The position numbers were made by a program, and so were the translations under genes. Below the pieces are notes generated by a model. That model worked only from the letters and a program-made list of their open reading frames with translations, searched no databases and was not told the origin of the DNA. From IMG/VR virus record IMGVR_UViG_3300010373_000471, positions 1-25,282 of that record: a stretch of DNA of 25,282 nucleotides; one strand, written 5' to 3'. This DNA is from a virus. Of this stretch, positions 3,224 to 24,657 are shown piece by piece; position 1 is the first letter of the stretch, and each line of letters opens with the position of its first letter.

Positions 3224-4102
3224 TCACACTCCACAGTGGCCGTCCATGCACGGCCGCATGATGTCCTCGTATGTCAGGTCGAGCCGGCCTTGGTCGCGAA
3301 CCGTGCGCGCCATCGTGGCATAGTCCTCCCGATCGGCTCGGAACGTCCCGCCCGCGCCGGCCCCGTGCGGCAGTGCCTCCATGTCTTGCCACCAACGCAT
3401 CCGGTCGGGATGTTCCAGCAGCATCCGCTCGATAGCGGCGCGGCTCTTGAGGAAGCAGCCGTCACAGTTTCCTTCCCAGGAGCCGCTCAGCGCGAGATCG
3501 AAAGGCTGGGATTTCCAGAAGCCAATCACATCCAGAACGTCGATACCGGCAGCCGCGAGAGGACAGGCGTTGTGCCAACGGTCTTTCTTCGTGCGCTCCC
3601 GATCCAGCGCGCGCTCTACGCGCTTCGGCTCATCGGCACGAAGCCCGACCAGGCTTGTCCAATGCTCCCATCCAATCTGGCGTAGGAACCGCTTCTGCGT
3701 CCTGATCTTGAGTTCGATCGTGCAGAACCGTGAAACCGGATTGGGCAGCATGGATTTGCTGCGAAGCAGCGCCTCGAACGGCTCGCCGTTGCGACTGGCG
3801 CTGTTGTGCGAAACTTCAACCACGGATGGACCACCCGGCGCCCAGCGATATTCGAGCCAATGGACATGCACGTTCCAAGCTGCGGCGCAGTCGCGAACGA
3901 AGTCGAGCGTTGCAGGCATCTCACGGCCGGTGTTCGCGAAGCAGACCAGCACGTTATCTGGCAGAGTGCCGCCGTGGGACTGAAGGATGCGCCAGAGCAT
4001 GTATGCGCTGGTCCTGCCTCCCGAGAACGAGACCACCGCAGGCCCGGTGATGAAGAACGGATCGGCCTTTGCGTCGATCTGGATGGGCGTGAGAGAGTTC
4101 AC
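3224..4102 (-). CDS. PAPS reductase / DndC-like PP-loop protein
   Basis: A 292-aa adenine-nucleotide alpha-hydrolase-like protein. Visible motifs: PP-loop SFSGGRTS at 25-32, FANTGRE at 55-61, CTIELK at 127-132, GLRADEPKR at 153-161, and cysteine pairs at NCDGC (213, 216) and CMDGHC (285, 290), which could hold an iron-sulfur cluster as in DndC-type enzymes. Family knowledge: these proteins activate sulfate or use ATP in sulfur transfer. Phages often carry a stand-alone copy of unclear role. No DndB/D/E-like partner is seen here. The start is GTG at 4102, overlapping the recombinase stop (GTGA), with AAGGAG upstream. Confidence 0.85.
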   Translation of the reverse strand: MNSLTPIQIDAKADPFFITGPAVVSFSGGRTSAYMLWRILQSHGGTLPDNVLVCFANTGREMPATLDFVRDCAAAWNVHVHWLEYRWAPGGPSVVEVSHNSASRNGEPFEALLRSKSMLPNPVSRFCTIELKIRTQKRFLRQIGWEHWTSLVGLRADEPKRVERALDRERTKKDRWHNACPLAAAGIDVLDVIGFWKSQPFDLALSGSWEGNCDGCFLKSRAAIERMLLEHPDRMRWWQDMEALPHGAGAGGTFRADREDYATMARTVRDQGRLDLTYEDIMRPCMDGHCGV

Positions 4103-4782
4103 TTCTTCTCCTTAGCAGCACGTTCAATGGCATCCATGCGCCGCATAATCGTCACTTTGGAATAGCCCAGCTCTTTTGCAGCCGCAGCCAAGGCGCCAGC
4201 CTTGAGCAACCCTCCGTGCTTCTTGACAACGGCCGCCACGTCCTCATCCGAGATGCGCTTGGCAACGCCCCCCGTTACCCCGCGCTCACGAGCTTTCTGT
4301 AGCCCGTGCATGGTGCGTTCCAAGCTCCATTCCCGCTCGAATTGCGCCACGGTCAGGAGGATGTGGAAGATCAGCCGCCCCGCTGTGGTGCCCGTGTTGA
4401 TGTCCTGCGCGAGCGCCTTGAGTGTCACGCCCTTCTCGCGGAGTTGCGCCTCGATCTCGATCACTTCCTTGAGGTTGCGGCCCAGCCGATCGAGGCTATG
4501 GACAACGAGGATGTCGCCTTCCCGCAGGTCCATCCAGCAGTATTGCCAGCCGACCCGATCCATATTCTTGCCGCTCGCCTTGTCGCTAAAGATGTTCACG
4601 GCGGCCACGCCATACTTCACCAGTTCATCGACTTGGCGTTGCAAGGACTGCTCTGACGTGCTCACGCGGGCGTAGCCGACCATGTGCGGATCGTCTGGCC
4701 CCTTCTCCCTATCCTTCACGGTGGAGGTGAGGATTGGGACGATCCGAGGCTTGCGTTTTCGGGTTTTCCGGGGTGCCTTCAT
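4099..4782 (-). CDS. Serine recombinase (resolvase/invertase family)
   Basis: A 227-aa protein from ATG 4782. Residues 35-45 (VGYARVSTSEQ) contain the nucleophile Ser41 and Arg39. HSLDRLGRN at 95-103 supplies the conserved Asp/Arg residues of the catalytic domain. Residues 104-170 contain the long E-helix region, and 176-217 a Hin-type HTH (ISDEDVAAVVKKHGG to GYSKVTIMRRM). A basic 33-residue extension precedes the usual start. ATG at 4683 (MVGYARV) is a real alternative, and neither start has a strong ribosome site. It could invert DNA, resolve multimers or integrate; no pair of recombination sites was found. The open frame up to 5346 is antisense to other genes and is not included. Confidence 0.85.
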   Translation of the reverse strand: MKAPRKTRKRKPRIVPILTSTVKDREKGPDDPHMVGYARVSTSEQSLQRQVDELVKYGVAAVNIFSDKASGKNMDRVGWQYCWMDLREGDILVVHSLDRLGRNLKEVIEIEAQLREKGVTLKALAQDINTGTTAGRLIFHILLTVAQFEREWSLERTMHGLQKARERGVTGGVAKRISDEDVAAVVKKHGGLLKAGALAAAAKELGYSKVTIMRRMDAIERAAKEKK

Positions 4783-6787: not shown

Positions 6788-6859
6788 CCGATTGCAAATA
6801 AGATTGCGATATGCCAACCTACGGCCAACGAACTAATACAAAACGGGAGGGACGAACCA

Positions 6860-7417
6860 ATGAAAGCCACAACCATAACCGCAGCCGCCGCCTGCCTGCT
6901 CATCGCCCGAGCGCCGCCTGCTGCCGCCAATGTCACATACCGATGGAGCGATCCGGCATTCACGTTACCCTTTAACGACAGCTCAATCACCGTGAGCGAC
7001 GCGGCTTATCGTTCTGGCTCATTGATGTTCGATGCCAGTTGCGGTCAACCCTTCCCGCCCTGCAATCCGCCATGCTGTGACGCGCAGCCGCCACCGGCCG
7101 GCTGGATTTCCGGGTTCCAGTTTCCCAACGTCGAATCGTCCGCATCCGTCATTCTGACATTCGAGGGCGAATTGCTCGCCGGCTCCTTTCACATCAACCT
7201 TAGCTCCGATCAGGCTTTCACCTATGAAGGTGACGGAATGAACTGGAACGCCTCATTCATCGATGGCGTCGAGACATTTACGGAAACCGGCTTCTATCAG
7301 CGGGTCGGTGATCCGCCGCCCGATCCGGTGCCCGAGCCCGCATCAATCGCTGCGCTGTTGACTGGCCTGGCAGGGGTGGTGATCGTACAACAAAAAAGGC
7401 GCCGGGCTCGCGCCTGA
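6860..7417 (+). CDS. PEP-CTERM sorting-domain secreted protein
   Basis: A 185-aa protein with a Sec-type signal peptide (residues 1-23, ending AAA), a beta-rich ectodomain and a C-terminal PEP-CTERM tripartite signal: VPEP at 157-160, a hydrophobic stretch ASIAALLTGLAGVVIV, and the basic tail QQKRRRARA. Cysteines (C61, C68, C72, C73) lie in a proline-rich loop. Family knowledge: exosortase processes such proteins at the cell surface in bacteria that make exopolysaccharide. No exosortase gene is in the window, so a host enzyme would be needed. GGGAGG lies 9 nt before the ATG. Finding this gene between phage gene blocks is unusual; it may be a moron or a host gene at a boundary. Confidence 0.75.
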   Translation: MKATTITAAAACLLIARAPPAAANVTYRWSDPAFTLPFNDSSITVSDAAYRSGSLMFDASCGQPFPPCNPPCCDAQPPPAGWISGFQFPNVESSASVILTFEGELLAGSFHINLSSDQAFTYEGDGMNWNASFIDGVETFTETGFYQRVGDPPPDPVPEPASIAALLTGLAGVVIVQQKRRRARA

Positions 7418-7447: not shown

Positions 7448-7906
7448 CTACCGCACCAGCGCCTTTACGTCCACCACGGGCACGACGGGTTCAGGCACTT
7501 CAGGCGTTGCCGGCGACGCCGCGGCAACCGTAACGGCCTCGGGAAACTTTCTTTCCATAACGTCGGCCAGCTTCTGCGCGGCCTCGATCGGCTTTGACGT
7601 ATCCACGCCAACGCGCGCCAGCGAGTCAGGAAATTTGTCGATCGCATAGGCCGTGGCCGCTGCCAGGACGTGATCCTTGACATCGATATGGTCCCAGCCC
7701 TTCGCCGCAATCTCGTGCTGTGCTTGGGAAATGCCGAAAGCAAGCGCCTTGCCAGCATTGTCTTCTAGCTCGGCCTTCTGCGCGACGGATAGCTTAACGT
7801 TCATCCATGCAAGCAAACGCTGGCCGAAGGCAATGAGCATACCGCCAATGGCAATGCCGACGCCGGTTAGGATTTGCGTTTCAATGCCGGTGAGATCGAA
7901 TGTCAT
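7448..7906 (-). CDS. Holin candidate (LLH-type layout)
   Basis: A 152-aa protein with one N-terminal membrane segment (residues 13-34, VGIAIGGMLIAFGQRLLAW). A helical cytoplasmic part follows (KLSVAQKAELEDNAGKALAF, then DVKDHVLAAATAYAIDKFPD), ending in a proline/valine-rich tail (VPEPVVPVVDVKALVR). One TM followed by an A-helix-rich soluble domain resembles phage holins of the LLH superfamily. The position at the end of the structural operon agrees. No endolysin is next to it. An alternative is a general phage membrane anchor protein. Confidence 0.55.
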   Translation of the reverse strand: MTFDLTGIETQILTGVGIAIGGMLIAFGQRLLAWMNVKLSVAQKAELEDNAGKALAFGISQAQHEIAAKGWDHIDVKDHVLAAATAYAIDKFPDSLARVGVDTSKPIEAAQKLADVMERKFPEAVTVAAASPATPEVPEPVVPVVDVKALVR

Positions 7907-8108: not shown

Positions 8109-8231
8109 CTACAACCAACACACGAAGGCAAGTGCAATAGCAACCGCCAAAGCCTGAAGCCACGCACGCTTGCGCGGTGGCTCCATGTGAGACATTTCCC
8201 GTTCCTCAAGGACAGACATGCGTTGCATCAT
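8109..8231 (-). CDS. Small membrane protein, 40 aa
   Basis: A complete frame starts MMQRMSVLEEREMSHMEPPRKR and ends with one membrane span (WLQALAVAIALAFVCWL). The ATG overlaps the preceding stop by 4 nt (ATGA). A charged cytoplasmic part before a C-terminal span is typical of small accessory lysis proteins, but no spanin motif or lipobox is seen. The ribosome site is weak. Confidence 0.5.
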   Translation of the reverse strand: MMQRMSVLEEREMSHMEPPRKRAWLQALAVAIALAFVCWL

Positions 8232-8848
8232 GGTGTGGTCTTCTTCGGCTCGACGGTCACGGCAGGAGCAGAAAAACCTTGCGGCGCTGTAGCCACGCGC
8301 TGACTGTTCAGATAAGCCATGCCGATACCGAACGCCGCAATAATCAACGCGCCGATGGCGATGTTGCGCGCCGTGTCCGCAGCACGGCCAGTCTGCGCGC
8401 CCTCACCCCGATTGAGGCGTGAGTTGATAGCCTCGATCTTGTCATTCATCACGTTCTTGGTTTCGGCAAGCTGGCCGTAGATCGTGTCAATCTGCTTTGT
8501 AACGGCAGCCTCACTTTTCGTTACCGCTGCAACATTGCTGGTATTCTGCGCGGCCACAGCATCCTTCATCGCGGTCAATGCGGCAATAACCGAATCCCGC
8601 CGCTCAGCAAACGTCGAATCCACAGTTGCGAACTTCTGATCGGTCAGAGCGCGAAGGTGAGCAACTTGTTTTTCAACCTCCGTAGGAACACGCATCAGGT
8701 TGGTTTGGAACGTCTCGCTGGCCTTTTCGACGGAATCAATCCGCGTGCTCAGCAACTCCCGAAGGCCGCCCAACTCACGCCGCAGCATGTCAACTGTCAG
8801 CGCAGTAGGGTCAGGAACAGGAACAAAGGAATGCTGAGGAGCCACCAT
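8228..8848 (-). CDS. Coiled-coil protein with C-terminal membrane anchor
   Basis: A 206-aa protein: proline-containing N-terminus, long alpha-helical region (residues 15-150) with heptad-like runs (RIDSVEKASETFQTNLMRV, EKQVAHLRALTDQKFATVDS, IDTIYGQLAETKNVMNDKIE), then a membrane segment at 161-180 (NIAIGALIIAAFGIGMAYL) and a short tail. This form is frequent in phage lysis or tail-assembly clusters, often called a hypothetical membrane coiled-coil protein. It is separated by 3 nt from the tail-fibre gene before it, so it is likely co-transcribed. Role uncertain. Confidence 0.7.
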   Translation of the reverse strand: MVAPQHSFVPVPDPTALTVDMLRRELGGLRELLSTRIDSVEKASETFQTNLMRVPTEVEKQVAHLRALTDQKFATVDSTFAERRDSVIAALTAMKDAVAAQNTSNVAAVTKSEAAVTKQIDTIYGQLAETKNVMNDKIEAINSRLNRGEGAQTGRAADTARNIAIGALIIAAFGIGMAYLNSQRVATAPQGFSAPAVTVEPKKTTP

Positions 8849-8851
8849 AAC

Positions 8852-9763
8852 CTAACTCTTGCCAGCCTCCAGCGCCGCGACACGCGCACGCAACTTCTGC
8901 ATCTCAGCCCACAGCAGCGGCACCAGCGAGGAATGATCAACCTGTTGCGGAATGATGCCACCGCTTTTGCCAACCGCGTCCTTCTCGCCTTGCACGGCCC
9001 ACGGCGCGCGCGCCTGTAGCTCGTGCGCGAGAAACACCGGCCGCCGAACGGACAGAGCAGCGTTGAACGCGCCATCGTAGACGGGCACGGTGTCGATAAG
9101 GCTTTCCGGCGCATACAGCCCGAACGTTGTTTTCAGGCGGTAGTCCGATGTGGTGTTGTAGGACGTGGTTGCGCCATCGCGGGACGTGATGCTGCCGACG
9201 TTCGTTCCCAAATATCCAAACCAGGCATGGTTAGAATTGACAGACGTAAGATTAGTTACAAAGATACTCGTATCTGCGGCTCCCGCCACCATCCATCCGG
9301 TAAACATATTGAAGTTATTTGCAGAAATCGTAATCGAGCCAGTCGGCCCGCTGTAAAAACCGTCACCGCTGAACGTCGCTGCGCCGAGCGTAGCAGTCCC
9401 AGGAACGGTAATCGTGCCAGCGCCAAGATCACCACCGATCGACACATCACCGCTGGCCGTGATGTTTCCTGTGACAGTAATGTTGCCTGTGGAACTCGTG
9501 CCATCGGAGGTTTCCTGATCCCAAATCAGGTTGCCGGCCGCGTCCGTCAGCACCTGGCGGTAAATCCCCTGCCCGAACAGCACCGCCTCCCCGGCGCTAT
9601 CCAGCACAACCGGGTTGGTGTTCAGGATCGTGGCAGCGGAGTCCTGCCAGGTGTCCTTGCGATCGCTGGTCCCAGGGACAAAGAAGTCGATTGTGGCGCC
9701 AGCGAGCGGTTTGCCATCACTGTCGCAAAACTGAAGCTTGCCGGGGGGGAGCAGAGTCGCCAT
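8852..9763 (-). CDS. Tail fibre with C-terminal S74 intramolecular chaperone
   Basis: A 303-aa protein from ATG 9763. Residues 5-85 form the N-terminal virion-binding type domain (LPPGKLQFCDSDGKPLAGAT, FFVPGTSDRKDTWQDSAATI, VLDSAGEAVLFGQGIYRQVL). Residues 90-200 are a repetitive beta region with short T/G-rich strands. Residues 205-300 carry the S74/endosialidase chaperone signature: SDYRLK with Ser206 and Lys211, and a closing coiled coil (LWAEMQKLRARVAALEAG). In this family the chaperone folds the trimer and cuts itself off at the Ser. The ribosome site is weak, and the 267 nt upstream hold an oppositely oriented gene. Receptor binding is the likely role. Confidence 0.8.
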   Translation of the reverse strand: MATLLPPGKLQFCDSDGKPLAGATIDFFVPGTSDRKDTWQDSAATILNTNPVVLDSAGEAVLFGQGIYRQVLTDAAGNLIWDQETSDGTSSTGNITVTGNITASGDVSIGGDLGAGTITVPGTATLGAATFSGDGFYSGPTGSITISANNFNMFTGWMVAGAADTSIFVTNLTSVNSNHAWFGYLGTNVGSITSRDGATTSYNTTSDYRLKTTFGLYAPESLIDTVPVYDGAFNAALSVRRPVFLAHELQARAPWAVQGEKDAVGKSGGIIPQQVDHSSLVPLLWAEMQKLRARVAALEAGKS

Positions 9764-9793
9764 GTTGAATCCGAAATGTAAGGGGGATGGTTC

Positions 9794-10093
9794 GTGGTCT
9801 GGATCGCAGGCGGCTTGCTGGCGCTGGCGCTGCTCTATTGCTGGCTTGCGGGAGGCCAATTCGCCCGCATCCTAGCCTTCCTCGTCTTTTCCGTCCTGTT
9901 CGGCTTCGCCGCTGTCGTGTTCTTTGTCGGCAATCATGGTGACTTCAAGAACTTTGCCGGGATCGGCGTTGCCGTCGTAATCGCTTGGTTTGTCGCCTCT
10001 TTCCCGATCGAATATCAGAAAAGCCCCCGCCTATGGCGGCGTTCCACCGGCTCCTTGGAAACGCTGCCCGGCGAGAATGGCCGCCGGCTGTAG
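9794..10093 (+). CDS. Rightward membrane protein inside the leftward virion operon
   Basis: A 99-aa frame from GTG 9794 with AAGGGGG about 6 nt upstream. Two to three hydrophobic spans are visible: residues 1-19 (IAGGLLALALLYCWL), 24-46 (ARILAFLVFSVLFGFAAVVFF) and 56-70 (GIGVAVVIAWFVASF). A basic C-terminus follows. Third codon positions are GC-rich, as expected for a coding frame. It fills an otherwise empty 267-nt stretch and overlaps the end of the leftward gene by 63 nt. A superinfection-exclusion or lysis moron is possible. No family recognised. Confidence 0.6.
   Translation: MVWIAGGLLALALLYCWLAGGQFARILAFLVFSVLFGFAAVVFFVGNHGDFKNFAGIGVAVVIAWFVASFPIEYQKSPRLWRRSTGSLETLPGENGRRL
10019..10039 (-). 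terminator. Rho-independent terminator after the transglycosylase gene
   Basis: On the minus strand CCGCC-ATA-GGCGG is followed by GGGCTTTTC. The stem contains the TAG stop of the leftward gene. It would end the long leftward transcript before the rightward gene 9794-10093. Confidence 0.5.
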
Positions 10094-12445
10094 CTGCGGT
10101 CCAATCACCGCCCCCAGCCTGTTGAGCATTGGCGTTGCGGCAGGATTCCCAAGGCCGCTCTGGATCAGTCGATTGACCACCGCCGGATTCTGCAACTGGT
10201 GCGCAAGTAGCCGTTGCCCTGCGATGGCGGTGCCGTAGGTGCCCGCGCCAGCCGCCGCCGCGAGCGGTGACAGATACGCGCTGCCTCCCGCCGCCCCAAC
10301 CGCCGCCAAAGGATTCTCCAAATACTTGAGCGCCCGCATTCCTGCCGGCGTGCCAGAGTCTCTCGGCCCCGTGACGAACGCTTGGCCGATCTGCGCCAAC
10401 TCCCCGAGATCGTCAGCACCTTGAAAGGCTCGGTTGCCAAAGCTCGTCGTCACACGTCCATTGAGCAAGGCAGGACTGATATCCCCCGTTGCGGATTTCG
10501 CGACCAGCGGCGCCACCGTCATCATATTCTTGTATTGCAATCTCGTCTGAGAAAGTAGCGCCTGATCGGACTGCCCCGCCGACCGTTGGAACGCATCATC
10601 CAACGCATTCCGAACGCCCTGAGCATAAAACGCAACGTCTGGATCGGTGCTATTCTCCAAGCGATCGAGCGGCCGATTGCTGCGCGTCAAGGACTGATAT
10701 ACGTCACCGGGAATGACGCCTTTGTTGCTCTGTAAGGCATCGCGAATATCACTGACCGCACTCGTCACCCGATTATAGTCCGCAGGATTGAGTACTCGCT
10801 TGGCATCCTGTGCGACGGCCCCGAGATCAGTAAGAAACTGCGGGTCCGGTACGATTGTCGTGCGCTGCGCGATGGCGTCAAATGTCTGTCCCAAACCTTT
10901 CTTGGCAGCCTGCATGACAGGCGCGGTAAACCGGCCGTCGCTTTGCGAAAGATCGGCACCAAACGTCTTTGCGACAGCCGCATTGAACGGCGCTTGCAAA
11001 TCCTTCGTGCCCATCCCCGTCATGGGCAGTTGTCGTAGCATCTGCCCGGCTTTCTGTGTGAACGGGTCTTGGCTTATCTGATCGACAGTTAGAGGAAGCC
11101 CATATTTGTTCACAGCCAAATCGGCCAGCTTCGCCCGCGGCGAACTAAGATTGCCGCCGGTCGCCACCGTGCGCAGCGCATTGCCTCCAGCGCCCAACGT
11201 TCCGAGCACTGGCCCGGCAACAGCGCCGCCCAGCGCCCCCATGCCGACCTGTGTGGCGAGCGGCACGTTGGACTGTCCCGACGTAGCGGCCCCAAGTGCG
11301 CCGCCCTGTAGCGCGCCCTGAGTGCCCATGGACAGGCCGCGAACGATGGCGTTGGCCGATCCGCCGACCGGAGCGCTCGCGGTGCCGCCGATGAAATCAC
11401 CGAGCGCATTTGTCGCCTGTCCGAGCACCGGAGCGATACGCCCCGCCCCCTGTGCCAAGAGATTGACGCCAGCCCCTGCGGCATCTCCAATCGGCCCCAT
11501 GGCTGGCGCCGTAACCGCCGTTTGCCCGACCAGACGCCCTGCCCCGCCAGCAAGCGATTGGCCCGCTGGGGATGCCTGAAACGCCTGTTGGCGGGCGGCA
11601 AGGTTCGCCTGCATGGCAGCAGGATCAATGCCCGTAGCTGCATCCAGGCGGCCCAGAAACGGCACCGCCTGATTGACTGCGCCAACACCACGCGCAAGCG
11701 TGTTGCTTACATCACGAACGCCTTGCGTCGTGCCCTCGGTGAACTGCTGCAAGGCAGGGCTGCCGAGCATTGGCCCCTGTGGCGCAGCGGCAGGAGCCGC
11801 CACGGGAGGAGCAGCGGCAGCCTGCGCGGGCGGTGGCGTGGCGCTCTGTTGCTGATCGAGCGCGCGCCCCAAGGCAAGATAAGGGTCTGCGCTGCCGTCA
11901 GACGCTCCGGCGGCTGCGGGTGCCGTGCCGCCAGTCCGCAGATTTTGCAGAACTGTATTCGCATCTGCGCCGCTAGGAACACTTCCCGCGTCCAGCGCCT
12001 TCCCAAGCTCAAGGTATGGATCGGCTGCCGGCTGTGGCACTGGCGCGGGTGTTCCTTGTGACGTGGGGTTAACCGCCATGGAGGGATACAGGCTCTGTCC
12101 CTTGGCGATGTAGGCTAGGGTTTTTGGCCCCCAACTTGCCGGATTGGCCGAGCCGGAAAAGTAGTATCCGAGCGCGCCAGCCGGCGTGCCCGTCTTATCG
12201 AGCCCTTCCCGCAAATAGGCCATTGCCGCTGGCACGGCCTGTTCCATCTTGTGCGGATCGGTGACGCCATAGTGCTTTTGCAGCGGCGGCATGAGCTGCA
12301 TCGGCCCTTGCGCGCCAACCTCAGAATCAACCGTGCCAGGATTGCCGCTGCTTTCTAAGTGAAAGACGGTTTTTGCAAGCTGCGGATCAACGTTGGCATT
12401 TTTCCCGACCAGATCAAATAGCTGATCGTATGCGCTGTTGGGCAT
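10031..12445 (-). CDS. Lytic transglycosylase / DNA-ejection virion protein
   Basis: An 804-aa protein. Residues 1-116 form an SLT lytic transglycosylase domain: catalytic Glu31 in HLESSGNP, GAQGPMQLMP at 44-53 and ALGYYFSG at 91-98. Residues 120-260 are a Pro/Ala-rich linker with two copies of DPYLxLGxALD. Residues 290-420 are Gly/Ala-rich and hydrophobic (GAGRLVGQTAVTAP, LGAAGGAVAGPVLGT type). The rest is helical. Family knowledge: large podovirus ejection proteins (P22 gp16 or T7 gp16 type) carry such a murein-cutting domain and enter the cell with the DNA. The start is 3 nt after the stop of the gene before it. Its end lies in a terminator hairpin. Confidence 0.8.
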   Translation of the reverse strand: MPNSAYDQLFDLVGKNANVDPQLAKTVFHLESSGNPGTVDSEVGAQGPMQLMPPLQKHYGVTDPHKMEQAVPAAMAYLREGLDKTGTPAGALGYYFSGSANPASWGPKTLAYIAKGQSLYPSMAVNPTSQGTPAPVPQPAADPYLELGKALDAGSVPSGADANTVLQNLRTGGTAPAAAGASDGSADPYLALGRALDQQQSATPPPAQAAAAPPVAAPAAAPQGPMLGSPALQQFTEGTTQGVRDVSNTLARGVGAVNQAVPFLGRLDAATGIDPAAMQANLAARQQAFQASPAGQSLAGGAGRLVGQTAVTAPAMGPIGDAAGAGVNLLAQGAGRIAPVLGQATNALGDFIGGTASAPVGGSANAIVRGLSMGTQGALQGGALGAATSGQSNVPLATQVGMGALGGAVAGPVLGTLGAGGNALRTVATGGNLSSPRAKLADLAVNKYGLPLTVDQISQDPFTQKAGQMLRQLPMTGMGTKDLQAPFNAAVAKTFGADLSQSDGRFTAPVMQAAKKGLGQTFDAIAQRTTIVPDPQFLTDLGAVAQDAKRVLNPADYNRVTSAVSDIRDALQSNKGVIPGDVYQSLTRSNRPLDRLENSTDPDVAFYAQGVRNALDDAFQRSAGQSDQALLSQTRLQYKNMMTVAPLVAKSATGDISPALLNGRVTTSFGNRAFQGADDLGELAQIGQAFVTGPRDSGTPAGMRALKYLENPLAAVGAAGGSAYLSPLAAAAGAGTYGTAIAGQRLLAHQLQNPAVVNRLIQSGLGNPAATPMLNRLGAVIGPQLQPAAILAGQRFQGAGGTPP

Positions 12446-12448
12446 CGC

Positions 12449-13984
12449 TTATTGCATTCCGCCGCCTGTCGGCGCTGCGCCTTGCGATCCGTTCAGCTTG
12501 AATGCAGCGGCCATTCCCATCGCGCGCAAGTAGCGATCCAGAGCCGGACCCTTCAGCGACTTTCTATAAGCGGCATTCTGCTCTGGTGTATAGAGATCAG
12601 TGACAAGGCCGCGCTGATCGATCTTGCCACCGAAGTTTGCGGAGTGCGACAGATAACCGGAGCCGGTTCGCTGATCCGGCGCGCTCAACACTTGCACCAC
12701 CGAATTGCGCTGCCTAGCAATCTCGTTCCGAAGCACTTCCTGATTGGCCGCAGTGCCGATGCCCGTTCCGGCATTCGATGCCGCTGTCATAGCTCGGCCA
12801 GCGTCGGTATTCTGACCACCAGAGCTATCGATCACATACTTTTCCGCGTATTTCCGGAAAAGATCATAGTTGGTCGAATTGTCTGCCATATCCTTCGGCA
12901 GCACACCTTGCGCATTGAGGAACGAATAGAGTTGGTGTGCGCCTTCAGTTCCGGGTCCAGTTGAGCTGATAAGCTTCAACGCATCATTTGCATGTGCAAG
13001 ATTGACCATATTTTGCCGAACGGCAGGAAGCCCCGCCTGATCCTGAACAAACTTGTTCTGATCCGCAACATTCGCTTCCGGCAGATTCTGCGGTGGTGCG
13101 GCGAGCGTCGATCCGGCCGGAGCCGTAGGCGCTACAGGAGGCGCGGCACCGCCGCCCGCCTGTGGTGCCGCGCCTGCGGGAACAGCGCCAGGAGCGGCAC
13201 CCGGCGGACGATAGCCGCCACTGCCCATGTTCGGAGCGGCATACTGGCTTGGCGCTGCGACATTGCGCGGCGTGTTCACTTGCAGATAGCGCGGTGCGCC
13301 GGGCGGCGAATTCGGATCAACGATATATTGCGGCTGCATTCCCTCATTAGGAACGGCACCGGGTTGCACAGTCATTGCGCCACCCATCGGGGCGGATGCC
13401 CGATTGACCGGAACAGTCGCAGCCCCTGTATCGACAGTCCCTTGCGTCCCGAAGATTGTTTGCACCTGTTGGGGACCAGCGAGATTCGACACCAAATGCC
13501 GAAGTGCATATTGCTTGTATGAAGCCGCAGGAGAACCATCCGGTGGCAGATCGGACTCGGCGGCTTGCGCATCCTGCGGTGTGATTGCGCCAGCTTGCGT
13601 CAGTGCAGCTATTTTTTGCTTAATGACCTGTCCGTTAAGCTGATCTTCGGGCAGCGTGAGCAGCGATGCGATGCCTTGATTAACCGCAGTCTGCGCCTGT
13701 TGTCCTCGCCCCTGTGACGTGTTCTGAAGATTCTGCCCAGCCTGCGCCGACTCCTGCGCCGACATGGCGGCATTCGGATTACCGGCCAGCCCCTGCAACA
13801 ACTTGTTTTGGTTGGGCAATCCGTCAGGACCGATCGAACCTTGAAACGCCTGCCCGGCAGCCTGCTTGCTCTTGAAAAGCTGATTCCGATAGAGCGCGCT
13901 TTGCAAGTCTGCGCCTTGCTGCGCAAGCGCGAGAGGATTCTGAAACTGCGGAATGAATACATTAGGCATGGTCTGGTCAGGCAT
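12449..13984 (-). CDS. Internal virion / DNA-ejection protein, Q/A/P-rich
   Basis: A 511-aa protein: helical N-terminus (NPLALAQQGADLQSALYRNQ), Gln/Ala-rich helices to about residue 190, a low-complexity Pro/Gly/Ala linker (about 235-300, e.g. GYRPPGAAPGAVPAGAAPQA), and a C-terminal helical domain (residues 305-500, with LKLISSTGPGTEGAH and KGPALDRYLRAMGMAAAF). No enzymatic motif is visible. Its place between the hendecad-repeat protein and the transglycosylase, and its composition, fit the ejection-protein set of podoviruses (middle member). Its ATG overlaps the upstream stop (TAATG). Confidence 0.65.
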   Translation of the reverse strand: MPDQTMPNVFIPQFQNPLALAQQGADLQSALYRNQLFKSKQAAGQAFQGSIGPDGLPNQNKLLQGLAGNPNAAMSAQESAQAGQNLQNTSQGRGQQAQTAVNQGIASLLTLPEDQLNGQVIKQKIAALTQAGAITPQDAQAAESDLPPDGSPAASYKQYALRHLVSNLAGPQQVQTIFGTQGTVDTGAATVPVNRASAPMGGAMTVQPGAVPNEGMQPQYIVDPNSPPGAPRYLQVNTPRNVAAPSQYAAPNMGSGGYRPPGAAPGAVPAGAAPQAGGGAAPPVAPTAPAGSTLAAPPQNLPEANVADQNKFVQDQAGLPAVRQNMVNLAHANDALKLISSTGPGTEGAHQLYSFLNAQGVLPKDMADNSTNYDLFRKYAEKYVIDSSGGQNTDAGRAMTAASNAGTGIGTAANQEVLRNEIARQRNSVVQVLSAPDQRTGSGYLSHSANFGGKIDQRGLVTDLYTPEQNAAYRKSLKGPALDRYLRAMGMAAAFKLNGSQGAAPTGGGMQ

Positions 13985-15279
13985 TAGTAGATACTCGCAC
14001 CAGAGAGGAAGGCGGGCTGATAGCCGATGCCTGTCGGGTCCATAGCTCCCGCTGTGGGATAGGCCGGAGTCTGCGCCATGTTAAAGTTCGTATTGGCTCC
14101 CGGTGCGCTTGCATAGGAGTTGGTCAGCAAGGGATTTTGCTGCGCTAGAACGCTTTGCAACATATTGGACTGTTGATACTGATTGACCGCATTCTGAATG
14201 CCGCCACTAAGCGCATTCCCCGTGTTCATCAAGCCGCTCGCTTGCGCGGCACCCTGTTGTGTCAGGAAGTTTCCGCTATTCGCTGCCGATGTGACTCCCT
14301 GCGATCCAAGCTGCGCCGCCGCATTCGATCCAATGGCCGTAGCCCCGAGCAGATTGGCAAATTGCTGATTGAGGCGGTTGGTCTGCGCCTGCCCGAGATT
14401 CATAAACCCGGTGGCTTGCGCTTGGTTGGTCTGGAAAGCATTGTTATACGCTTGCTGCTGCGTATTGAACTGGTTCTGATAGTTCTGCTGCACGTTCTGA
14501 AGCTGGTTCTGGTATCCTGTCTGCGCGGTGTTAAACGCATCCGAGTAATTTTGCTGCCCCGTGTTAAAGGCGTCCGTATATCCCTGCTGCGCATTGTTGA
14601 ATGCGTCAGTGTATCGCTGCTGTCCGGTATTGAACGCATCCGTGTAACCAGTCTGAGCATTGTTAAACAGGTCGGTGTAAATCTGCTGCGCGTTGTTGAA
14701 TTGGTTCTGATAGGTGCTATCGGCAAGGCCAGTCGCATAAGTGGAAGCGCCCTTTAGCGCCGCGCCGGAAACGCCAAGCCCTTTCGCCGCCGCCGCGCTC
14801 TGTGCTGCCTTGAGCCCTTGCGAGAGATTGAACTGATAGCCTGGCGTCGCCTCTAGCTGCGCCTGTGTCATGGGCGGCGGGGCGCCGGGCAGCGTCGGTG
14901 CCCCAGGCAAATTGGCCGTCTCGAAAGTCGGCGCACCCGGCAAATTGGCGTTCGGCAGATTCGGCGTATTCGGCAGCGTCGGAGCGCCAGGAAGATTGGC
15001 GTTCTGTGGCAGCCGGTTAAGGGCATCCTCGGCAGGACGATATTGCCAGGGCGTCTCGCCCATTTGCCCGCTGTTAACCAGATCAGTCAGCTTGTTTCCG
15101 GCGTTCTGTCCAATATCAACGAACGGATGCGCCGTGTTGTAATTAAGCTGAAACTCGGCAAGATTCTGCGCAGCCGCGTTTCCTGATGCTGCCGCCTGCG
15201 CGCCGCCCGCACTGCTCGATGCCGCAGCGCCGATGCCAGCCGCAGCTACCGCCCCGATAGCGCCAATTGCAGCTACCAT
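13984..15279 (-). CDS. Internal virion / DNA-ejection protein with hendecad repeats
   Basis: A 431-aa protein. Residues 3-20 are a hydrophobic Gly/Ala segment (AAIGAIGAVAAAGIGAAA). Residues 95-134 hold N-L-P-G-A-P-T type repeats. Residues 190-288 are nine consecutive 11-residue repeats, each beginning with Tyr (YTDAFNTGQQR type), exactly in phase at 190, 201, 212 and so on to 278. The C-terminal part is Asn/Gln-rich. Such Gln/Tyr-rich helices with a hydrophobic end occur in ejection proteins that build a conduit through the envelope (P22 gp7/gp20, T7 gp14 analogues); this is inference from layout. The ATG follows the GNAT stop by 1 nt. Confidence 0.65.
   Translation of the reverse strand: MVAAIGAIGAVAAAGIGAAASSSAGGAQAAASGNAAAQNLAEFQLNYNTAHPFVDIGQNAGNKLTDLVNSGQMGETPWQYRPAEDALNRLPQNANLPGAPTLPNTPNLPNANLPGAPTFETANLPGAPTLPGAPPPMTQAQLEATPGYQFNLSQGLKAAQSAAAAKGLGVSGAALKGASTYATGLADSTYQNQFNNAQQIYTDLFNNAQTGYTDAFNTGQQRYTDAFNNAQQGYTDAFNTGQQNYSDAFNTAQTGYQNQLQNVQQNYQNQFNTQQQAYNNAFQTNQAQATGFMNLGQAQTNRLNQQFANLLGATAIGSNAAAQLGSQGVTSAANSGNFLTQQGAAQASGLMNTGNALSGGIQNAVNQYQQSNMLQSVLAQQNPLLTNSYASAPGANTNFNMAQTPAYPTAGAMDPTGIGYQPAFLSGASIY
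14416..14712 (-). repeat. Nine in-frame 33-bp tandem repeats (11-residue hendecads)
   Basis: Nine units of 33 bp encode Y-x-x-x-F-x-x-x-Q-x-x. The middle units (YTDAFNTGQQR, YTDAFNNAQQG, YTDAFNTGQQN, YSDAFNTAQTG) are closely alike at both DNA and protein level; the end units have drifted. Periodicity is perfect, without insertions. It is a protein repeat, not a CRISPR array. Confidence 0.8.
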
Positions 15280-15280
15280 G

Positions 15281-15742
15281 TCATTCGCCTAGCCATTTGG
15301 AGTAAAACATTTCAATCGGCCTGAACCCGAGAGACAGAAACAACGCGCCTGCATCTTGATGCAGCTTGGTTCCGACAAACCACCGCTGCACACCGCGACG
15401 GCGCAACTCGTTCTCGACTCCACGAAACAGAATCTTTCCGGCGTTGCGCCCCCCCTTGCGACATTCCGGCACAACCCAGAAAATGTCCGTCCTGCATTCC
15501 AGGCACGTTGAGTAATGCAGCGACGGCATCACGAAGCCGACGAAATATCCTGCCATCTGACCGTCCTCCCGCACGGTCACGACAAGCAGCTTTCCGCCAC
15601 TTTCGAGCGTTCGATACGTGCCGTAATCCGGCGATAACGGTACGTGCTCTTGCTCTAGCGCCAGCGCTTTATAGTGCTCTGGGAAAAGCTCGATCATCTC
15701 GGGAAGGCACGACGACCACGCTTCGACCTGCGCTGTAATCAC
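15281..15742 (-). CDS. GNAT-type N-acetyltransferase
   Basis: A 153-aa product from GTG 15742, which overlaps the previous stop (GTGA). A TTG at 15748 is another possible start. The acetyl-CoA loop is VPECRKGGRNAGKILF (about residues 91-106), with the R-x-x-G-x-x-A-G variant. The C-terminal strand and helix (VQRWFVGTKLHQDAGALFLSLGFRPIEMFYSKWL) follow the GNAT pattern. It lies directly upstream of the ejection-protein genes. As I recall, GNAT-like proteins also stand at this place in some T7-like phages (gp13 position). It may modify virion or host proteins; the substrate is unknown. Confidence 0.75.
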   Translation of the reverse strand: MITAQVEAWSSCLPEMIELFPEHYKALALEQEHVPLSPDYGTYRTLESGGKLLVVTVREDGQMAGYFVGFVMPSLHYSTCLECRTDIFWVVPECRKGGRNAGKILFRGVENELRRRGVQRWFVGTKLHQDAGALFLSLGFRPIEMFYSKWLGE

Positions 15743-16299
15743 GGCCAAATCCGCAGATCGACTAGAAGATGAATGCGATCATCGGCACTGTTGTTCTCGA
15801 CCGAATGCTCAACCAGCGCATTGAACCACCATACCTCGCCGGTCAGCATCTGCACCGTCTCGTCGCCGCAGTGATAGAGCGATCCCGGCAACCCTTGCAG
15901 CACCACATGATAGCGCGAGCGGTCATGGTCGTTGACATACGAACCGTCGTTGTCCGCGTGCTGCGGAATGCGCCCGCCCGGCCGCAGCCGCGTAATCAGG
16001 CAGCGATCGAGCGCATAGGCGTCCACCGCACGCATAAGATCAAGAATGACCTGTCGCGCTTGCGGCAAGGCAATCGCTGCTTCGTGCCAAACCGGAAAAT
16101 CGTCACCTATGACAGTGCTGGTGGTGTCGCATTTGGTTTCATCGGAAAACCGCAGCCAGATATCGTCAACAGCGGAATGCGGCGTATTCGGATACGTCGT
16201 GCGAAACCGATGCGCATTCCACAAACCGGGCTGCCGCGCGACCGCATGAAGCAACGCCGCCACATTGACGTTGGATGAGAGGCGATGGAAAAAGCGCAT
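15739..16299 (-). CDS. Aspartyl/asparaginyl beta-hydroxylase-like Fe(II)/2OG oxygenase
   Basis: A 186-aa product; the start ATG at 16299 overlaps the preceding stop (TGATG) with AGGA upstream. The iron site is visible as H-A-D in IPQHADNDGSY (about residue 114), with the distal His in LVEHSVENNS. The 2OG-binding Arg lies in DDRIHLLVD (near residue 176). These match the cupin-like aspartyl hydroxylase family found also in phages. It is fused into the virion operon between the repeat-containing tail protein and the GNAT. Likely reaction: hydroxylation of a protein side chain; target unknown. A much longer in-frame opening to 17265 is antisense-free but lacks a start and reflects the repeat region. 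Confidence 0.75.
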   Translation of the reverse strand: MRFFHRLSSNVNVAALLHAVARQPGLWNAHRFRTTYPNTPHSAVDDIWLRFSDETKCDTTSTVIGDDFPVWHEAAIALPQARQVILDLMRAVDAYALDRCLITRLRPGGRIPQHADNDGSYVNDHDRSRYHVVLQGLPGSLYHCGDETVQMLTGEVWWFNALVEHSVENNSADDRIHLLVDLRIWP

Positions 16300-18002
16300 C
16301 AGGTTCCTATATTGCCGCCGCCTCGCAACCAAACCGATTGCATGAAGCGATACCAAGTCTCGTTGATTAGCCCTGTCTTGGGATCGACCATCGGATAACC
16401 GCGCTGTGGAAAGCCGATATCGACAATGTTCTGGAACGGAACAAACGGCTTCAGGGTCAGAGTGCCAGTGCCTTGCTGGCCGCCACGCACCATGCCGCCG
16501 TGTGCAAACGCCTGCCCTCTGGAATGCAGCGCCACGATAACAGGAAGGGTGAGAACGTCCTGGCCGTGACTGAACGCGATGCCGCGCGACACCAGCGCCA
16601 GCGGCGTGCTGCCGATCGTCAGAACGCCGCTGCCCCGGCTGAACGCAGACCCTTGCGATGTCAGTGCAAGGGATAGGACCAGGCTTCCCTTGCCCGTCGA
16701 TCTCGCGCTGCCGAGCGAGGTCAGAGCGAGGGGCAGAAACAGGGTGAGCGTGCCGCGCCCGCGCGAGAACGCCGCGCCACGCGAAGTCAGGGGCTGCGAA
16801 AGCGATAGAACACCCTGCCCCTGTGCCCGCGCGCTGCCCAGGGAGGTCAAAGCTTGGGCGAGCGAGAGCGCTCCCCGACCTTGAGAGAACGCCGCGCCAC
16901 GGGAGGCAAGCGTAAAGCTGAAAGTGAGCGCACTGCGCCCGTGGGAGAAAGCCGCGCCCCGCGAGGCGAGCGCCTGAGAAAGCGAGAGCGCGCCTCGTCC
17001 GTGGGAATAAGCGGCCCCCCGCGCAGCGAGGGGCTGAGTGAGCGAGAGCGCGCCCTGACCGCGCGAATATCCAGCGCCCCGCGATGCCAGAGCGAGGCTT
17101 AGAGTAAGTGCGCCACGCCCTCGGGAGTAAGCGGCCCCCCGCGCCGCAAGAGGCTGAGAAAGGGAAAGAGCGCCACGCCCAAACGAAAACGCAGAACCTT
17201 GACTCGTCAGTGGCAGCGATATGATAGAGCCAAAAACCGGCCGACGCACCGCCCGCAGCATACAAAACGGATCGGCGTCAAGAACCGCAATTTCGGCTGC
17301 TGAAAGCGCCCTGTTATAAGTCAGGGCAATAGCAATGCCGGTGTCGCTAATCCTAGTCGGAGAAGGAACATTCCCCCCCAACCCAGCAACCGGACTAACA
17401 TAACTCGGTCCCGCACCACTCCATGTGCCGGACCCGTATGGCAACGCGTCTTGATAGATCGCGATGGCACCGCCAGCGATAAACGAAACAGCCGCCGAAT
17501 GATGCCCTGTTGTGGGAGCTATAAACGACGCTAGTTGCGATACAGCAGTGCCGGCAGCATTATACGAAAATGCCAGCTTTTTAGTCGTAAAATCGACGAA
17601 TAAGCCATAATCTGTAAACGGAGACGTATTCGTGGCGCTGTGACTTAGACCCCACAGCCATCCATTTCCGACGCTCGGCGTAGCAAGAAAGTCCGCAGAT
17701 ACGAACAGCGTCCCTGCATTGGACAACTGCCATAGGGCGGGAATATTGGACGATGACGCCCCAGCAGTAGACGCCGTATTGACCAGCCCAGCGCCAGCGG
17801 ATGTGGGACCGATCTTCGCGCCGCTGCCCATCGTAAGCAGCGGGCCATTGCCAGCAAGATCGACAATTCCTCGCGTGCCACCCGGAACGTAGCAGGCAAT
17901 CAATCCGTTCGCGAGCGGATGCGACCAATCTATTTCGACTGGCAGTGTCGGAACGCGACCCGGCGTAACTATGCCGGCGCGACCCTTCCGCGCAACTGCC
18001 AT
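16299..18002 (-). CDS. LamG-like tail protein with tandem 20-residue repeats
   Basis: A 567-aa protein. Residues 24-255 look like a concanavalin/LamG-type jelly roll (WSHPLANGLIACYVPG, then LFVSADFLATPSVGNGWLWG, then IAIALTYNRALSAAEIAVLD, the typical LamG end). Residues 259-515 are twelve repeats of about 20 residues (consensus LSLSQPLASRGAAFSRGRGA). The C-terminus (VPFQNIVDIGFPQRGYPMVD, then WYRFMQSVWLRGGGN) is a motif I associate with tail proteins of alphaproteobacterial phages. The repeats predict a beta-solenoid or extended shaft. The gene starts 11 nt after the stop of the upstream gene. Ligand binding through the LamG domain is a reasonable guess. Confidence 0.7.
   Translation of the reverse strand: MAVARKGRAGIVTPGRVPTLPVEIDWSHPLANGLIACYVPGGTRGIVDLAGNGPLLTMGSGAKIGPTSAGAGLVNTASTAGASSSNIPALWQLSNAGTLFVSADFLATPSVGNGWLWGLSHSATNTSPFTDYGLFVDFTTKKLAFSYNAAGTAVSQLASFIAPTTGHHSAAVSFIAGGAIAIYQDALPYGSGTWSGAGPSYVSPVAGLGGNVPSPTRISDTGIAIALTYNRALSAAEIAVLDADPFCMLRAVRRPVFGSIISLPLTSQGSAFSFGRGALSLSQPLAARGAAYSRGRGALTLSLALASRGAGYSRGQGALSLTQPLAARGAAYSHGRGALSLSQALASRGAAFSHGRSALTFSFTLASRGAAFSQGRGALSLAQALTSLGSARAQGQGVLSLSQPLTSRGAAFSRGRGTLTLFLPLALTSLGSARSTGKGSLVLSLALTSQGSAFSRGSGVLTIGSTPLALVSRGIAFSHGQDVLTLPVIVALHSRGQAFAHGGMVRGGQQGTGTLTLKPFVPFQNIVDIGFPQRGYPMVDPKTGLINETWYRFMQSVWLRGGGNIGT
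16458..17228 (-). repeat. Twelve-unit ~60-bp tandem repeat inside the tail protein
   Basis: Units: one partial, seven consecutive units of exactly 60 bp (residues 279-418), then units of 22, 20, 23 and 22 residues. Conserved positions are L-(S/T)-L at the start, L-x-x-R/L/Q-G-(A/S)-A in the middle and (R/H/Q)-G-R/Q-G at the end. Copy number could change by slippage or recombination. Confidence 0.8.
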
Positions 18003-18013
18003 ACCACGTTACC

Positions 18014-18490
18014 CTAAGCGTTCAGATTTTCATTGAAGCTGCGATACTTCAAGGTCAGCGCCGCCGTAGCGTTGAGCGCAACGCCAAGGTTGTTCCCAAG
18101 CGCGAAAACAAAATTTCCGGGAGGCAAAACAATCTGGCGCCACATCGAGGAAATGGTGTTGCCGCTTGTAATTCCCGACTTCACCATGCACGATGCAGCA
18201 AGATAGCTCGCCACCGGCTGCACCGAACTTGACGACGCCGCGCCATCGCCATACGTCGTCCCATCTTGCTGCAATGGCAGAACATATAGAGTTAGGAAGC
18301 TGGTCGCAGTCGTCGTGCCTCCCACGGTCACAATGGCGGACACGTCCGCGTAAATGTCGAGCGCCGTACTATTCGTAATCGCTCCCGTCGAAACCGCACA
18401 TCCGCCACTTGCCAGCGAGTTGAGATCGCCAGCGGTGAACGTGGCCGCCGTCCAGTTGGTGTCGATAATCCATCGAGCCGTGCTCGCCAT
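18014..18490 (-). CDS. Phage tail-region hypothetical protein, 158 aa
   Basis: Small, Ser/Thr/Ala-rich beta protein: MASTARWIIDTNWTAATFTAGDLNSL, then YADVSAIVTVGGTTTATSFLT, VLPLQQDGTTYGDGAASSS and a closing LKYRSFNENL. The composition and its place in the tail operon suggest a structural or fibre-associated protein. No named family. It starts immediately after the neighbouring gene's stop and is followed by an 11-nt gap. Confidence 0.65.
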   Translation of the reverse strand: MASTARWIIDTNWTAATFTAGDLNSLASGGCAVSTGAITNSTALDIYADVSAIVTVGGTTTATSFLTLYVLPLQQDGTTYGDGAASSSSVQPVASYLAASCMVKSGITSGNTISSMWRQIVLPPGNFVFALGNNLGVALNATAALTLKYRSFNENLNA

Positions 18491-18898
18491 TTATGACGCA
18501 CTCCACTTGCGCGCAGCGAGCACTTCCTGATCGTTTACCGACACAAACCCAAGGCTCTTTGCAATCGTCTGCGTGACCGTAGCGAGCGCCAGCAAATTAG
18601 CCCGGCTAACAGTCGCAGCACCAAACGCATTCGCCAGAACCGTACGAGCGTTGGTGTTGGCCGATACGTCTATCCCATCGCCCAGCCCGAACACGTCCCG
18701 CACAAGCTGTTGCTGTGCAATGGTCAGCGCAGCGAATTCGGCCGGCACGATGGCATTGTAAATCTGCGCCCCATTCACTTGCAGCGGAGCAAGTTGCGTC
18801 GTGACAGTATTCGTATTGATGGCCGCGGCAATCTGCGCATCCGTCATTCCGGCATACGCAGGCTTGGCAATCTCAGCTTTGAGTCCTGCGTAATCCAT
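18491..18898 (-). CDS. Phage tail-region hypothetical protein, 135 aa
   Basis: Begins MDYAGLKAEIAKPAYAGMTDAQIAAAINTNTV. The ATG at 18898 overlaps the upstream stop (TGATG); a longer frame exists but would cut into the neighbour. Mostly helical: LTIAQQQLVRDVFGLG, then ANAFGAATVSRANLLALATVTQTIAKSLG and the end EVLAARKWSAS. The opening L-K-x-E-I-x-x-P-x-Y-x-G-M-T-D-x-x-x-A resembles a widespread small phage virion or tail protein of unknown function. Confidence 0.7.
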   Translation of the reverse strand: MDYAGLKAEIAKPAYAGMTDAQIAAAINTNTVTTQLAPLQVNGAQIYNAIVPAEFAALTIAQQQLVRDVFGLGDGIDVSANTNARTVLANAFGAATVSRANLLALATVTQTIAKSLGFVSVNDQEVLAARKWSAS

Positions 18899-19545
18899 CA
18901 GGCAAGCGTCAGCACGAATGCGCCAGGCGCGCCGCCAGCCCACGAAGGCGTCACGCCAGAACCGATTGTCTGCGCGACCACCTTGCGCACCATGCCGCTG
19001 CCGGTGCCGGTGGTGTTCACGCCGACATTGAAGGTGTCCGTAGTGACACCCGCCACGGTCAGGAGCCCGGCAAATGAGCCGCCCGTGGCAGGCAGCGTGC
19101 CGCCATCCTCCGCCGTAACCACCACGGTATCACCGTTGCTGTAGCCGTGCCCCGGCACCGTGAATACGCCGGGCGACGCGCTGGTGCATGTGAACGGAAG
19201 CCAGAGGAACCCCCCGAAGTAATCGGAGAAGATCATGTTGCCGGCCGTGGGAGCGTCATTCTGCGTCCATCCAACCACCGTCCCCCAGGAGCCTGTGGAC
19301 GTGGGGAACGTGATGGCGGAGGCGTTGCTTGTAGACGCCGGGGCGCTACCAGCCGCCGCGTTCCATGTGGCGCTAGAGGTCGCTACGCGGGCGTATGAGC
19401 CGGTCGAAACCTCAGTCCCGCCAGTCCCCGCGTCGCTCGGCAGCGTGGTCCATAGGCCCATGTATGCGGTCGGCATCGTCCAAGATGTCTTGCCCACCGA
19501 ATGATCGAGGATTTTGCGGGCGGCATAGTCAGAATAGCCAGTCAT
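18898..19545 (-). CDS. Tail fibre-like protein (Gp80-type N-terminus)
   Basis: A 215-aa product beginning MTGYSDYAARKILDHSVGKT, then MGLWTTLPSDAGTGGTEVST, GSYARVATSSATW and AITFPTSTGSWGTVVGWTQN. This series (A-x-x-x-L-D-H-x-x-G, Y-x-x-L-x-T-x-x-x-x-x-x-G-x-E-V, G-Y-A-R, F-P, W-G-x-V) matches small tail-fibre proteins of the mycobacteriophage Gp80-like group. The second half (residues 115-200) is a beta-rich insert resembling an Ig-like or carbohydrate-binding domain (GHGYSNGDTVVVTAEDGG). ATGA overlap with the gp10-like gene. Confidence 0.7.
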   Translation of the reverse strand: MTGYSDYAARKILDHSVGKTSWTMPTAYMGLWTTLPSDAGTGGTEVSTGSYARVATSSATWNAAAGSAPASTSNASAITFPTSTGSWGTVVGWTQNDAPTAGNMIFSDYFGGFLWLPFTCTSASPGVFTVPGHGYSNGDTVVVTAEDGGTLPATGGSFAGLLTVAGVTTDTFNVGVNTTGTGSGMVRKVVAQTIGSGVTPSWAGGAPGAFVLTLA

Positions 19546-23920: not shown

Positions 23921-24642
23921 CCGTAATCAAACTTTCCAGCGCCAAGCGACGACGCAAAGGTAACGGGAAGGGCTGTGGTGCTGGGGTTCGTGCCGTAGGC
24001 AATCGGGTTGCTCGGGGCAACCCAGCACCGCAGCGCCGGGGAATGGCTGGTCGAAAACGTGACCGTGCAAGCCGTGACGGTGCCCGACCCGACGTTGATT
24101 GTGCCGCTGTAGTCGGTTGATCCCGCCCCTACGGTTGGCGACGTACCGCAGGCCGTGACCGTGGGAGCGGCGCCGTTGCGCATAGCATTGCCGACCTGAG
24201 CACCGCTCAAAGTCAGAGTGCCGTCGCTCAGATCGGCTGCGGCGGGCTGCCCGAGCGAGGGAACGCCGCTGGTCGAGATTGAGGTAACGAACTGGTGCGT
24301 AACAGGTGCGATCGACTCCACGCCGCCAATCGTCACTGCCGTAGGCAATGGCAGACGTGCCGCGGCGAACGTGCCGGACGTGATCTTGGACGCTGCAAGG
24401 CTACAGACGAGCGAGACGACAGGACCACCGGACCCGGAGCAATCCCCGCTTGCGCCGGCCATGTTGTAGAGCTGCTGAACGGTTGCCTTGGCCGTGGTCG
24501 AAGGCGTTCGCCACAACAGCATTTCGTCCGTCGTAACCACCGGAGCAGAGATAGCCGCATGATTGTCGATCGTGTTGACAACCTGCGCGCTTGCCGTGCC
24601 CACGAATAGCAGCGGCAACGCAAAGAGAGCGTAACGCAACAT
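23911..24642 (-). CDS. Secretion-signal-bearing phage surface protein
   Basis: About 243 aa from ATG 24642, which has GAAGGATGGG upstream; ATG 24654 is an alternative. Residues 1-20 (MLRYALFALPLLFVGTASAQ) are a classical signal peptide. The body is Thr/Ser/Ala-rich: VVTTDEMLLWRTPSTTAKAT, then a GGVESIAPVTHQFVTSIS region, and a C-terminal part with the T-x-x-x-C-G-T-x-P-T-V-G-A-G-S-T pattern and several cysteines. This matches a group of phage proteins of unknown function common in alphaproteobacterial prophages. Its stop overlaps the next start by 10 nt. Confidence 0.6.
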   Translation of the reverse strand: MLRYALFALPLLFVGTASAQVVNTIDNHAAISAPVVTTDEMLLWRTPSTTAKATVQQLYNMAGASGDCSGSGGPVVSLVCSLAASKITSGTFAAARLPLPTAVTIGGVESIAPVTHQFVTSISTSGVPSLGQPAAADLSDGTLTLSGAQVGNAMRNGAAPTVTACGTSPTVGAGSTDYSGTINVGSGTVTACTVTFSTSHSPALRCWVAPSNPIAYGTNPSTTALPVTFASSLGAGKFDYGCN

Positions 24643-24657
24643 TCGATATCCCATCCT

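Follow-up and report, generated by a model that had tools for sequence, protein, structure and literature searches.

Gene P0001, carried by a virus record of 25,282 bases from IMG/VR (the whole stretch analysed, hereafter the window), encodes a protein that by its sequence is a member of the PEP-CTERM class of exosortase substrates, and genes with such tails recur at about 100 loci matched by a sequence pattern in viral contigs of what appear to be varied phages. The first-pass annotation of this DNA had regarded a phage that decorates its lysogen through the host exosortase as unusual, a wording that the recurrence calls for changing, and P0001 is of greater interest for belonging to a trait that recurs among phages than for being odd. 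We hypothesise that it is an accessory phage gene whose product would use the host exosortase and alter the host surface, most likely hindering further phages; on our own analysis this explanation is evenly poised between being right and being wrong. The features discussed are collected in Table 1.

Table 1. Features of the window and of the related phage G004
Feature	Position	Strand	Basis or remark
Phage-type PAPS-reductase-like protein	3224..4102	-	phrog_424, 189.9 bits; PF01507, 25.9 bits
Resolvase/invertase-family recombinase	4099..4782	-	PF00239, 131.6 bits, residues 223-357 of the called ORF
Small-gene run ahead of P0001	5470..6787	+	ORFs, codon usage; frames in 6217-6582 unsure
Small genes of this run	~5470-5658, 5655-5942, 5967-6188, 6599-6787	+	ORFs, codon usage
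Intergenic cassette AACCCCACTCTGAGGA.., three copies	5942-5963, 6190-6211, 6388-6409	+	73-100% alike
PEP-CTERM surface-protein gene P0001	6860..7417	+	ORF, TIGR02595; codon usage by a small margin
Putative Sec signal peptide, residues 1-23, cleavage near AAA/NV	6860..6928	+	by eye
PEP-CTERM sorting tail: VPEP, hydrophobic stretch, start of basic cluster	7328..7396	+	TIGR02595, 23.9 bits, E 2.9e-6
Terminator-like hairpin and T run	7397..7415	-	consensus scan; the opposite strand of the stem codes for RRRARA
Last late-operon gene, 152 aa, candidate holin-like membrane protein	7448..7906	-	phrog_17576 (unknown function)
Late (virion) operon: tail fibre, ejection proteins, head closure Hc3, others	8228..25176	-	PHROG matches; collinear with G003 and G004
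P0002 of G004, 230 aa, signal-peptide-like start, tail LPEPSSALVFLMGIAGAFVSYLKLRPTA (LPEP)	7248-7940 (G004)		between left and right operator pairs

A PEP-CTERM protein gene

The reading frame of P0001 has exactly the bounds given in Table 1, opens with an ATG preceded by GGGAGGG, and encodes 185 residues. Its beginning, MKATTITAAAACLLIARAPPAAA followed by NV, consists of a short basic start, a hydrophobic stretch and the AAA/NV junction, and by eye fits a Sec signal peptide. The middle part contains a Cys/Pro-rich loop, and the tail, PVPEPASIAALLTGLAGVVIVQQKRRRARA, runs up to the stop codon with VPEP, a hydrophobic stretch and KRRRARA, the near-invariant Pro-Glu-Pro of the substrate class standing at residues 158-160 of 185. 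The profile TIGR02595 matched P0001 with 23.9 bits in the record search and 22.0 bits in hmmscan, over its cut-off of 16, and Pfam PF07589 reached 18.7 bits, below its cut-off of 20.7. The earlier claim of a PEP-CTERM protein stands, by a tail over the TIGR02595 cut-off and a start that looks like a signal peptide. Among the 237 stop-to-stop frames of at least 60 residues in the window, P0001 is the only one to combine PxP, a hydrophobic stretch and a basic tail. Under the same lax rule, the shuffled window and G004 together (about 780 frames) gave 1.4 tails per shuffle, and G004 itself has four such frames, two with a literal PEP. Measured against the codon usage of the window's late genes, the frame of P0001 is the best of six, barely (0.083 bits per codon, the next having 0.059).

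No promoter for P0001 appeared in consensus scans, and no enzyme domain was found in its product by Pfam and NCBIfam-type profile searches. Scans based on short exact peptides or on limits to the tblastn E value, which would miss distant relatives, gave no homologue in viral contigs, phages or genome contigs. A structure model from P0001 alone had a mean pLDDT of 35 and was set aside. With no relative detected, a function can be proposed for the protein by analogy only. The PEP-CTERM tail was defined by Haft et al. 2006, who describe outer parts that usually have no relatives (PMC1569441), so that the isolation of P0001 is consistent with membership of the class.

The 3' end of P0001 overlaps a terminator-like hairpin, which the first-pass annotation had taken to close the gene. 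This part of the annotation does not hold: the hairpin and its T run belong to the minus strand and overlap the last codons of P0001, and the plus-strand side of the hairpin has TTTT only. Read on the minus strand, the T run would close the late operon. The same DNA (window 7397-7415) carries, on opposite strands, the late terminator stem and the basic-tail codons of P0001. Six terminator-like sites came out of the consensus scan of 5800-8900, where shuffles gave 3.4.

Phage genes on both sides of P0001

To the right of P0001, the late operon runs on the minus strand from 25176 down to 7448, with Hc3 (phrog_578, 378 bits), a head protein, ejection proteins and a tail fibre. A search with Hc3 gave five loci, two of which lie in long, close records, G003 (43,301 bases, 77%) and G004 (57,236 bases, 75%). 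Both are collinear with the late half of the window, with aligned segments about 66-83% identical at the DNA level. The product of the last late gene (7448-7906) is 53% identical to a homologue encoded at 48497-48859 of G004, while searches of G003 and of NCBIfam gave no match; we treat it as a candidate holin-like protein by inference only. Left of 7448, none of the window ORFs was matched in G003 or G004 (0 matches), which places P0001 in a segment special to the window's lineage.

This left segment also has the look of phage DNA. P0001 starts 72 bases past the last small gene (6599-6787) and faces the late operon. The product of 5655-5942 (95 aa) matches phrog_29363, and only five phage records match it (three phages), all from Sinorhizobium or Rhizobium, at 40-45%. 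The cassette AACCCCACTCTGAGGA sits ahead of three of the small plus-strand genes, between successive genes. Further left, the ORF called at 4099-5346 looks over-extended, a start at 4782 being our own reading of the translation. The PAPS-reductase-like protein is matched by 401 phage records, mostly of Vibrio, with Roseobacter phages as the best matches and Erythrobacter phages lower down. In the viral contig L274, too, a PAPS reductase occurs together with sequence that matches the region of the recombinase. The matches to Sinorhizobium, Rhizobium, Roseobacter and Erythrobacter phages give a weak hint that the host of the window is alphaproteobacterial. A scan of genome contigs for this host with an Hc3 alignment, using only two patterns, found nothing, and neither did one bacterial-genome scan for P0001 with short exact peptides, a weak search.

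By its surroundings, with the late operon on the right and a recombinase, a PAPS-reductase-like gene and a phage-matching small gene on the left, P0001 is encoded within a phage, and the placement between phage gene blocks that had been read from the letters is borne out. The first-pass annotation had also named two signs of a host-island boundary, absence from related phages and synteny shared with host chromosomes: the first was found, the sister phages having nothing akin to P0001 in sequence, and the second was not. The lack of relatives is not diagnostic, since homology among PEP-CTERM proteins is as a rule confined to the tail (PMC1569441). Neither an integrase nor a repressor was found among the genes scanned in the window, a 25-kb fragment, whereas G004 carries both.

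PEP-CTERM-like genes around the operators of G004

G004, a temperate phage, has an exact terminal repeat of 123 bp. Its integrase matches PF00589 with 68.7 bits and its CI-like repressor HTH_3 with 63.9 bits, while a Cro-like gene reaches 25.8 bits with P22_Cro, below the cut-off of 30.2, and 30 bits with phrog_35; genes resembling Sak4 and, weakly, SSB are present too. At 7139, 7173, 9067 and 9143, and nowhere else in its 57 kb, lie operator-like palindromes that differ from GTCGGACATTCCGAC by no more than one mismatch; 0.005 such sites are expected per shuffle. The two operator pairs (7134-7190 and 9061-9168; locus L072) enclose the gene with the LPEP tail, P0002, a 144-aa gene and the CI-like repressor, and the left pair matches the cro promoter region in inverted orientation over 46 nt at 80%. 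Across the left operators from P0002, a 177-aa ORF ends in VPEPAS..RRVRA. By hmmscan with TIGR02595 both tails are borderline (11.4 bits for the 230-aa protein and 15.1 bits for the 177-aa ORF, cut-off 16), and in the record search the 177-aa ORF reached 18.7 bits. With blastp, P0001 found the two tails at E 4e-5 (230-aa) and 7e-4 (177-aa), the reverse searches giving only 4.9 and 0.50. P0002 has no match among phages at E 10. In G003, a profile search covering 50 of 70 loci gave no PEP-CTERM match in the contig, which begins about 90 bases before the homologue of the 144-aa gene, just past the place expected for a counterpart of the LPEP gene. No operator of the G004 type lies near P0001, the only weak site in the window being at 1311.

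Recurrence of PEP-CTERM genes in viral contigs

We searched the IMG/VR viral contigs with the degenerate pattern VPEPA(S/T)xAL(L/F), which matched at 114 places. A strict test (motif at the C-terminus, a basic end and a preceding open stretch of 80 residues or more) was passed by 100 of these; 8 more have the tail and miss one of the cuts, and 6 are unrelated. As P0001 itself fails the pattern, 114 is an undercount. TIGR02595 was passed by 49 of the 50 pattern-selected records tested (50 of the 114 loci). Forty neighbourhoods of 20 kb, compared by the genes that they share, fell into at most 28 groups, a maximum because neighbourhoods may cover different parts of a genome. Among 110 of 126 flanking ORFs, taken from 33 of the 40 neighbourhoods as longest-ORF calls of which some are surely spurious, there are matches to terminase, portal, helicase and methyltransferase PHROGs. 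Of the 30 records examined for exact terminal repeats, 7 had them, with lengths of 95-127 bp in six and 17 bp in the seventh.

Further profile searches covered 49 records, namely 47 of the pattern-selected ones plus G003 and G004. The exosortase model TIGR02602, the only one used, matched none of these 49 virus records, a set outside which the window record lies, and its control matched in only 1 of 14 genomes, below cut-off. Tyrosine integrases were found in 11 of the 49 and were lacking in 38, a serine recombinase occurred in one, and HTH_3 matched in 27 at E <= 0.001, over its cut-off in 19. A search of the same records for T7-type RNA polymerase gave no match, and its controls were equally silent. 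The PEP-CTERM protein lies nearest to an HTH_3 gene, measured between midpoints, in G004 (1.4 kb), followed by G100 (1.7 kb) and G063 (2.2 kb), both under cut-off, and by G057 (2.7 kb), G064 (3.1 kb) and G095 (4.5 kb), each of which has an HTH_3 match over cut-off. From these distances, a position in the immunity region is seen for G004 alone. PEP-CTERM genes lie within 5 kb of the integrase in 5 of 11 records, against 2.8 expected (P 0.11, linear); if every record were circular, which is not established, this would become 7 of 11 against 3.2 (P 0.016), a weak signal. In G064 (locus L201), the integrase stands between two PEP-CTERM-like genes, of which one lies 100 bases downstream of an endolysin gene of the GH108 family.

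None of the 47 PEP-CTERM proteins in this set matched a PHROG, and 45 of the 47 matched TIGR02595 at E <= 0.001. The outer domains were compared for 73 of 76 proteins (3 being too short), and 52 fell into one loose cluster that includes a family of FGQTSG type (L078-L191). A model of the phage PEP-CTERM family A4, from 24 sequences (mean pLDDT 80.6), is mostly made of beta strands and a C-terminal helix, and Foldseek found no match to it at E <= 0.001 in the PDB or BFVD. Sigma-54-like sites were seen in 4 of 66 upstream regions (L114, L136, L138, L154), against 0.24 in mononucleotide shuffles, and none lies upstream of P0001 or of the G004 genes.

Discussion

We hypothesise of the following course of events. 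P0001 would be exported by Sec through its putative signal peptide and held in the inner membrane by the PEP-CTERM helix, where an exosortase supplied by the host could cut it and pass it on. The protein would then reach the outer surface or become part of the exopolysaccharide, and its variable outer domain could change the outward face of the infected or lysogenic cell. Most likely, further phages would adsorb less well or be impeded in bringing in their DNA, with a change in aggregation as another possibility. Superinfection exclusion is our leading guess for the role, favoured because of the precedent of the Ltp lipoproteins and of the position of the G004 gene. Since 38 of 49 records show no tyrosine integrase, the window shows no repressor and the immunity position is seen in G004 alone, we do not take lysogenic conversion as the general rule.

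The roughly 100 other phage contigs with such genes suggest that some phages may re-coat their hosts through the hosts' own sorting machinery. More tentatively, and with the balance tilted against it, we could consider a general, undescribed class of phages that re-coat exosortase-bearing hosts via the PEP-CTERM pathway, with fast-changing outer domains, a constant tail and repressor control in at least one temperate phage, P0001 being one such coat protein.

The main competing explanation, which we think unlikely and still weigh seriously, is that a host PEP-CTERM gene was acquired by chance, is maybe made and sorted, brings the phage no benefit and will be lost. Hosts with exosortase usually carry many PEP-CTERM genes (PMC1569441), and P0001 has neither a relative in the sister phages nor neighbours left of 7448 matched in G003 or G004. 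On the other hand, the trait recurs in phage contigs of varied kinds, of which six have terminal repeats of 95-127 bp, and no host relative was found, in the single short-peptide scan that makes this a weak objection. A role in lysis or release, with a membrane-held secreted protein acting on the envelope or exopolysaccharide late in infection, is improbable in our view. It could draw on the adjacency of P0001 to the last late gene, the candidate holin by inference, and on the G064 gene that lies 100 bases downstream of an endolysin gene, but P0001 is convergent to the late operon and outside it, shows no enzyme domain, and the G004 gene lies in the immunity region instead. More improbable again is an assembly chimera or the edge of a host island, with the left 7.4 kb foreign to the window phage. 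The left part indeed has no counterpart in G003 and G004, but it carries phage-type genes (phrog_424, phrog_29363, the recombinase) at similar G+C, and L274 also links PAPS reductase with recombinase-region sequence; no PAPS-bearing locus is closely joined to the window's late genes, so the junction at 7.4 kb itself is a presumed one. Very improbable, finally, is a chance reading frame with a basic tail supplied by the terminator stem. The stem of the late terminator does double as the RRRARA codons, and the codon usage fits modestly, but a single frame combines a fitting VPEP, helix length, tail and start, and most of the 1.4 tails per shuffle that the lax rule yields in about 780 frames would have neither PEP nor a signal peptide.

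Returning to P0001 as an accessory gene that acts through the host's exosortase, the roles of exosortase substrates are mostly unknown. If phages repeatedly supply their own substrates, the exosortase pathway would be a stage of phage-host conflict, phage genes would offer small, separable test cases, and a route that depends on a sorting enzyme would join the lipoprotein and membrane-protein routes of phage surface conversion. Phages could then also be linked to floc and biofilm behaviour.

Comparison with known systems

In phage lambda, rexAB is found in the space that separates the left operators from the repressor gene; it shares transcription with cI, and its action is intracellular. The LPEP gene of G004 is placed alike, and the likeness is one of position only: it runs opposite to its repressor, with a product that looks secreted, and P0001 is not so placed.

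The exosortase (EpsH) PEP-CTERM proteins (TIGR02595, PF07589), as defined in PMC1569441, share with P0001 the PEP, hydrophobic and basic C-terminus, a signal-peptide-like start and an outer part with no relatives; P0001 differs in being encoded by a phage, and no exosortase was found in the virus records searched. We found no literature on phage-encoded PEP-CTERM proteins in titles and the beginnings of abstracts, most subscription papers being outside this scope, and the PEP-CTERM passages of PMC12642866 and PMC4886054 concern host genes. Host PEP-CTERM proteins of the PepA flocculation type are described as needed for floc formation in activated-sludge bacteria (PMC9012009; PMC9850573), and one host PEP-CTERM gene as RpoN-dependent (PMC9850573). 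PepA (NF033554) has the same class of tail, with the P0001 match confined to it (13.4 bits against a cut-off of 80).

The Ltp lipoproteins of Streptococcus phage TP-J34 are described as phage surface proteins that exclude rival phages (PMC3952083). They are lipoproteins of a Gram-positive host, whereas the tail of P0001, from a phage known by its sequence alone, would need the sorting enzyme of two-membrane bacteria. In both cases, if P0001 is displayed as we propose, a phage gene product comes to lie on the surface of the host (PMC3952083).
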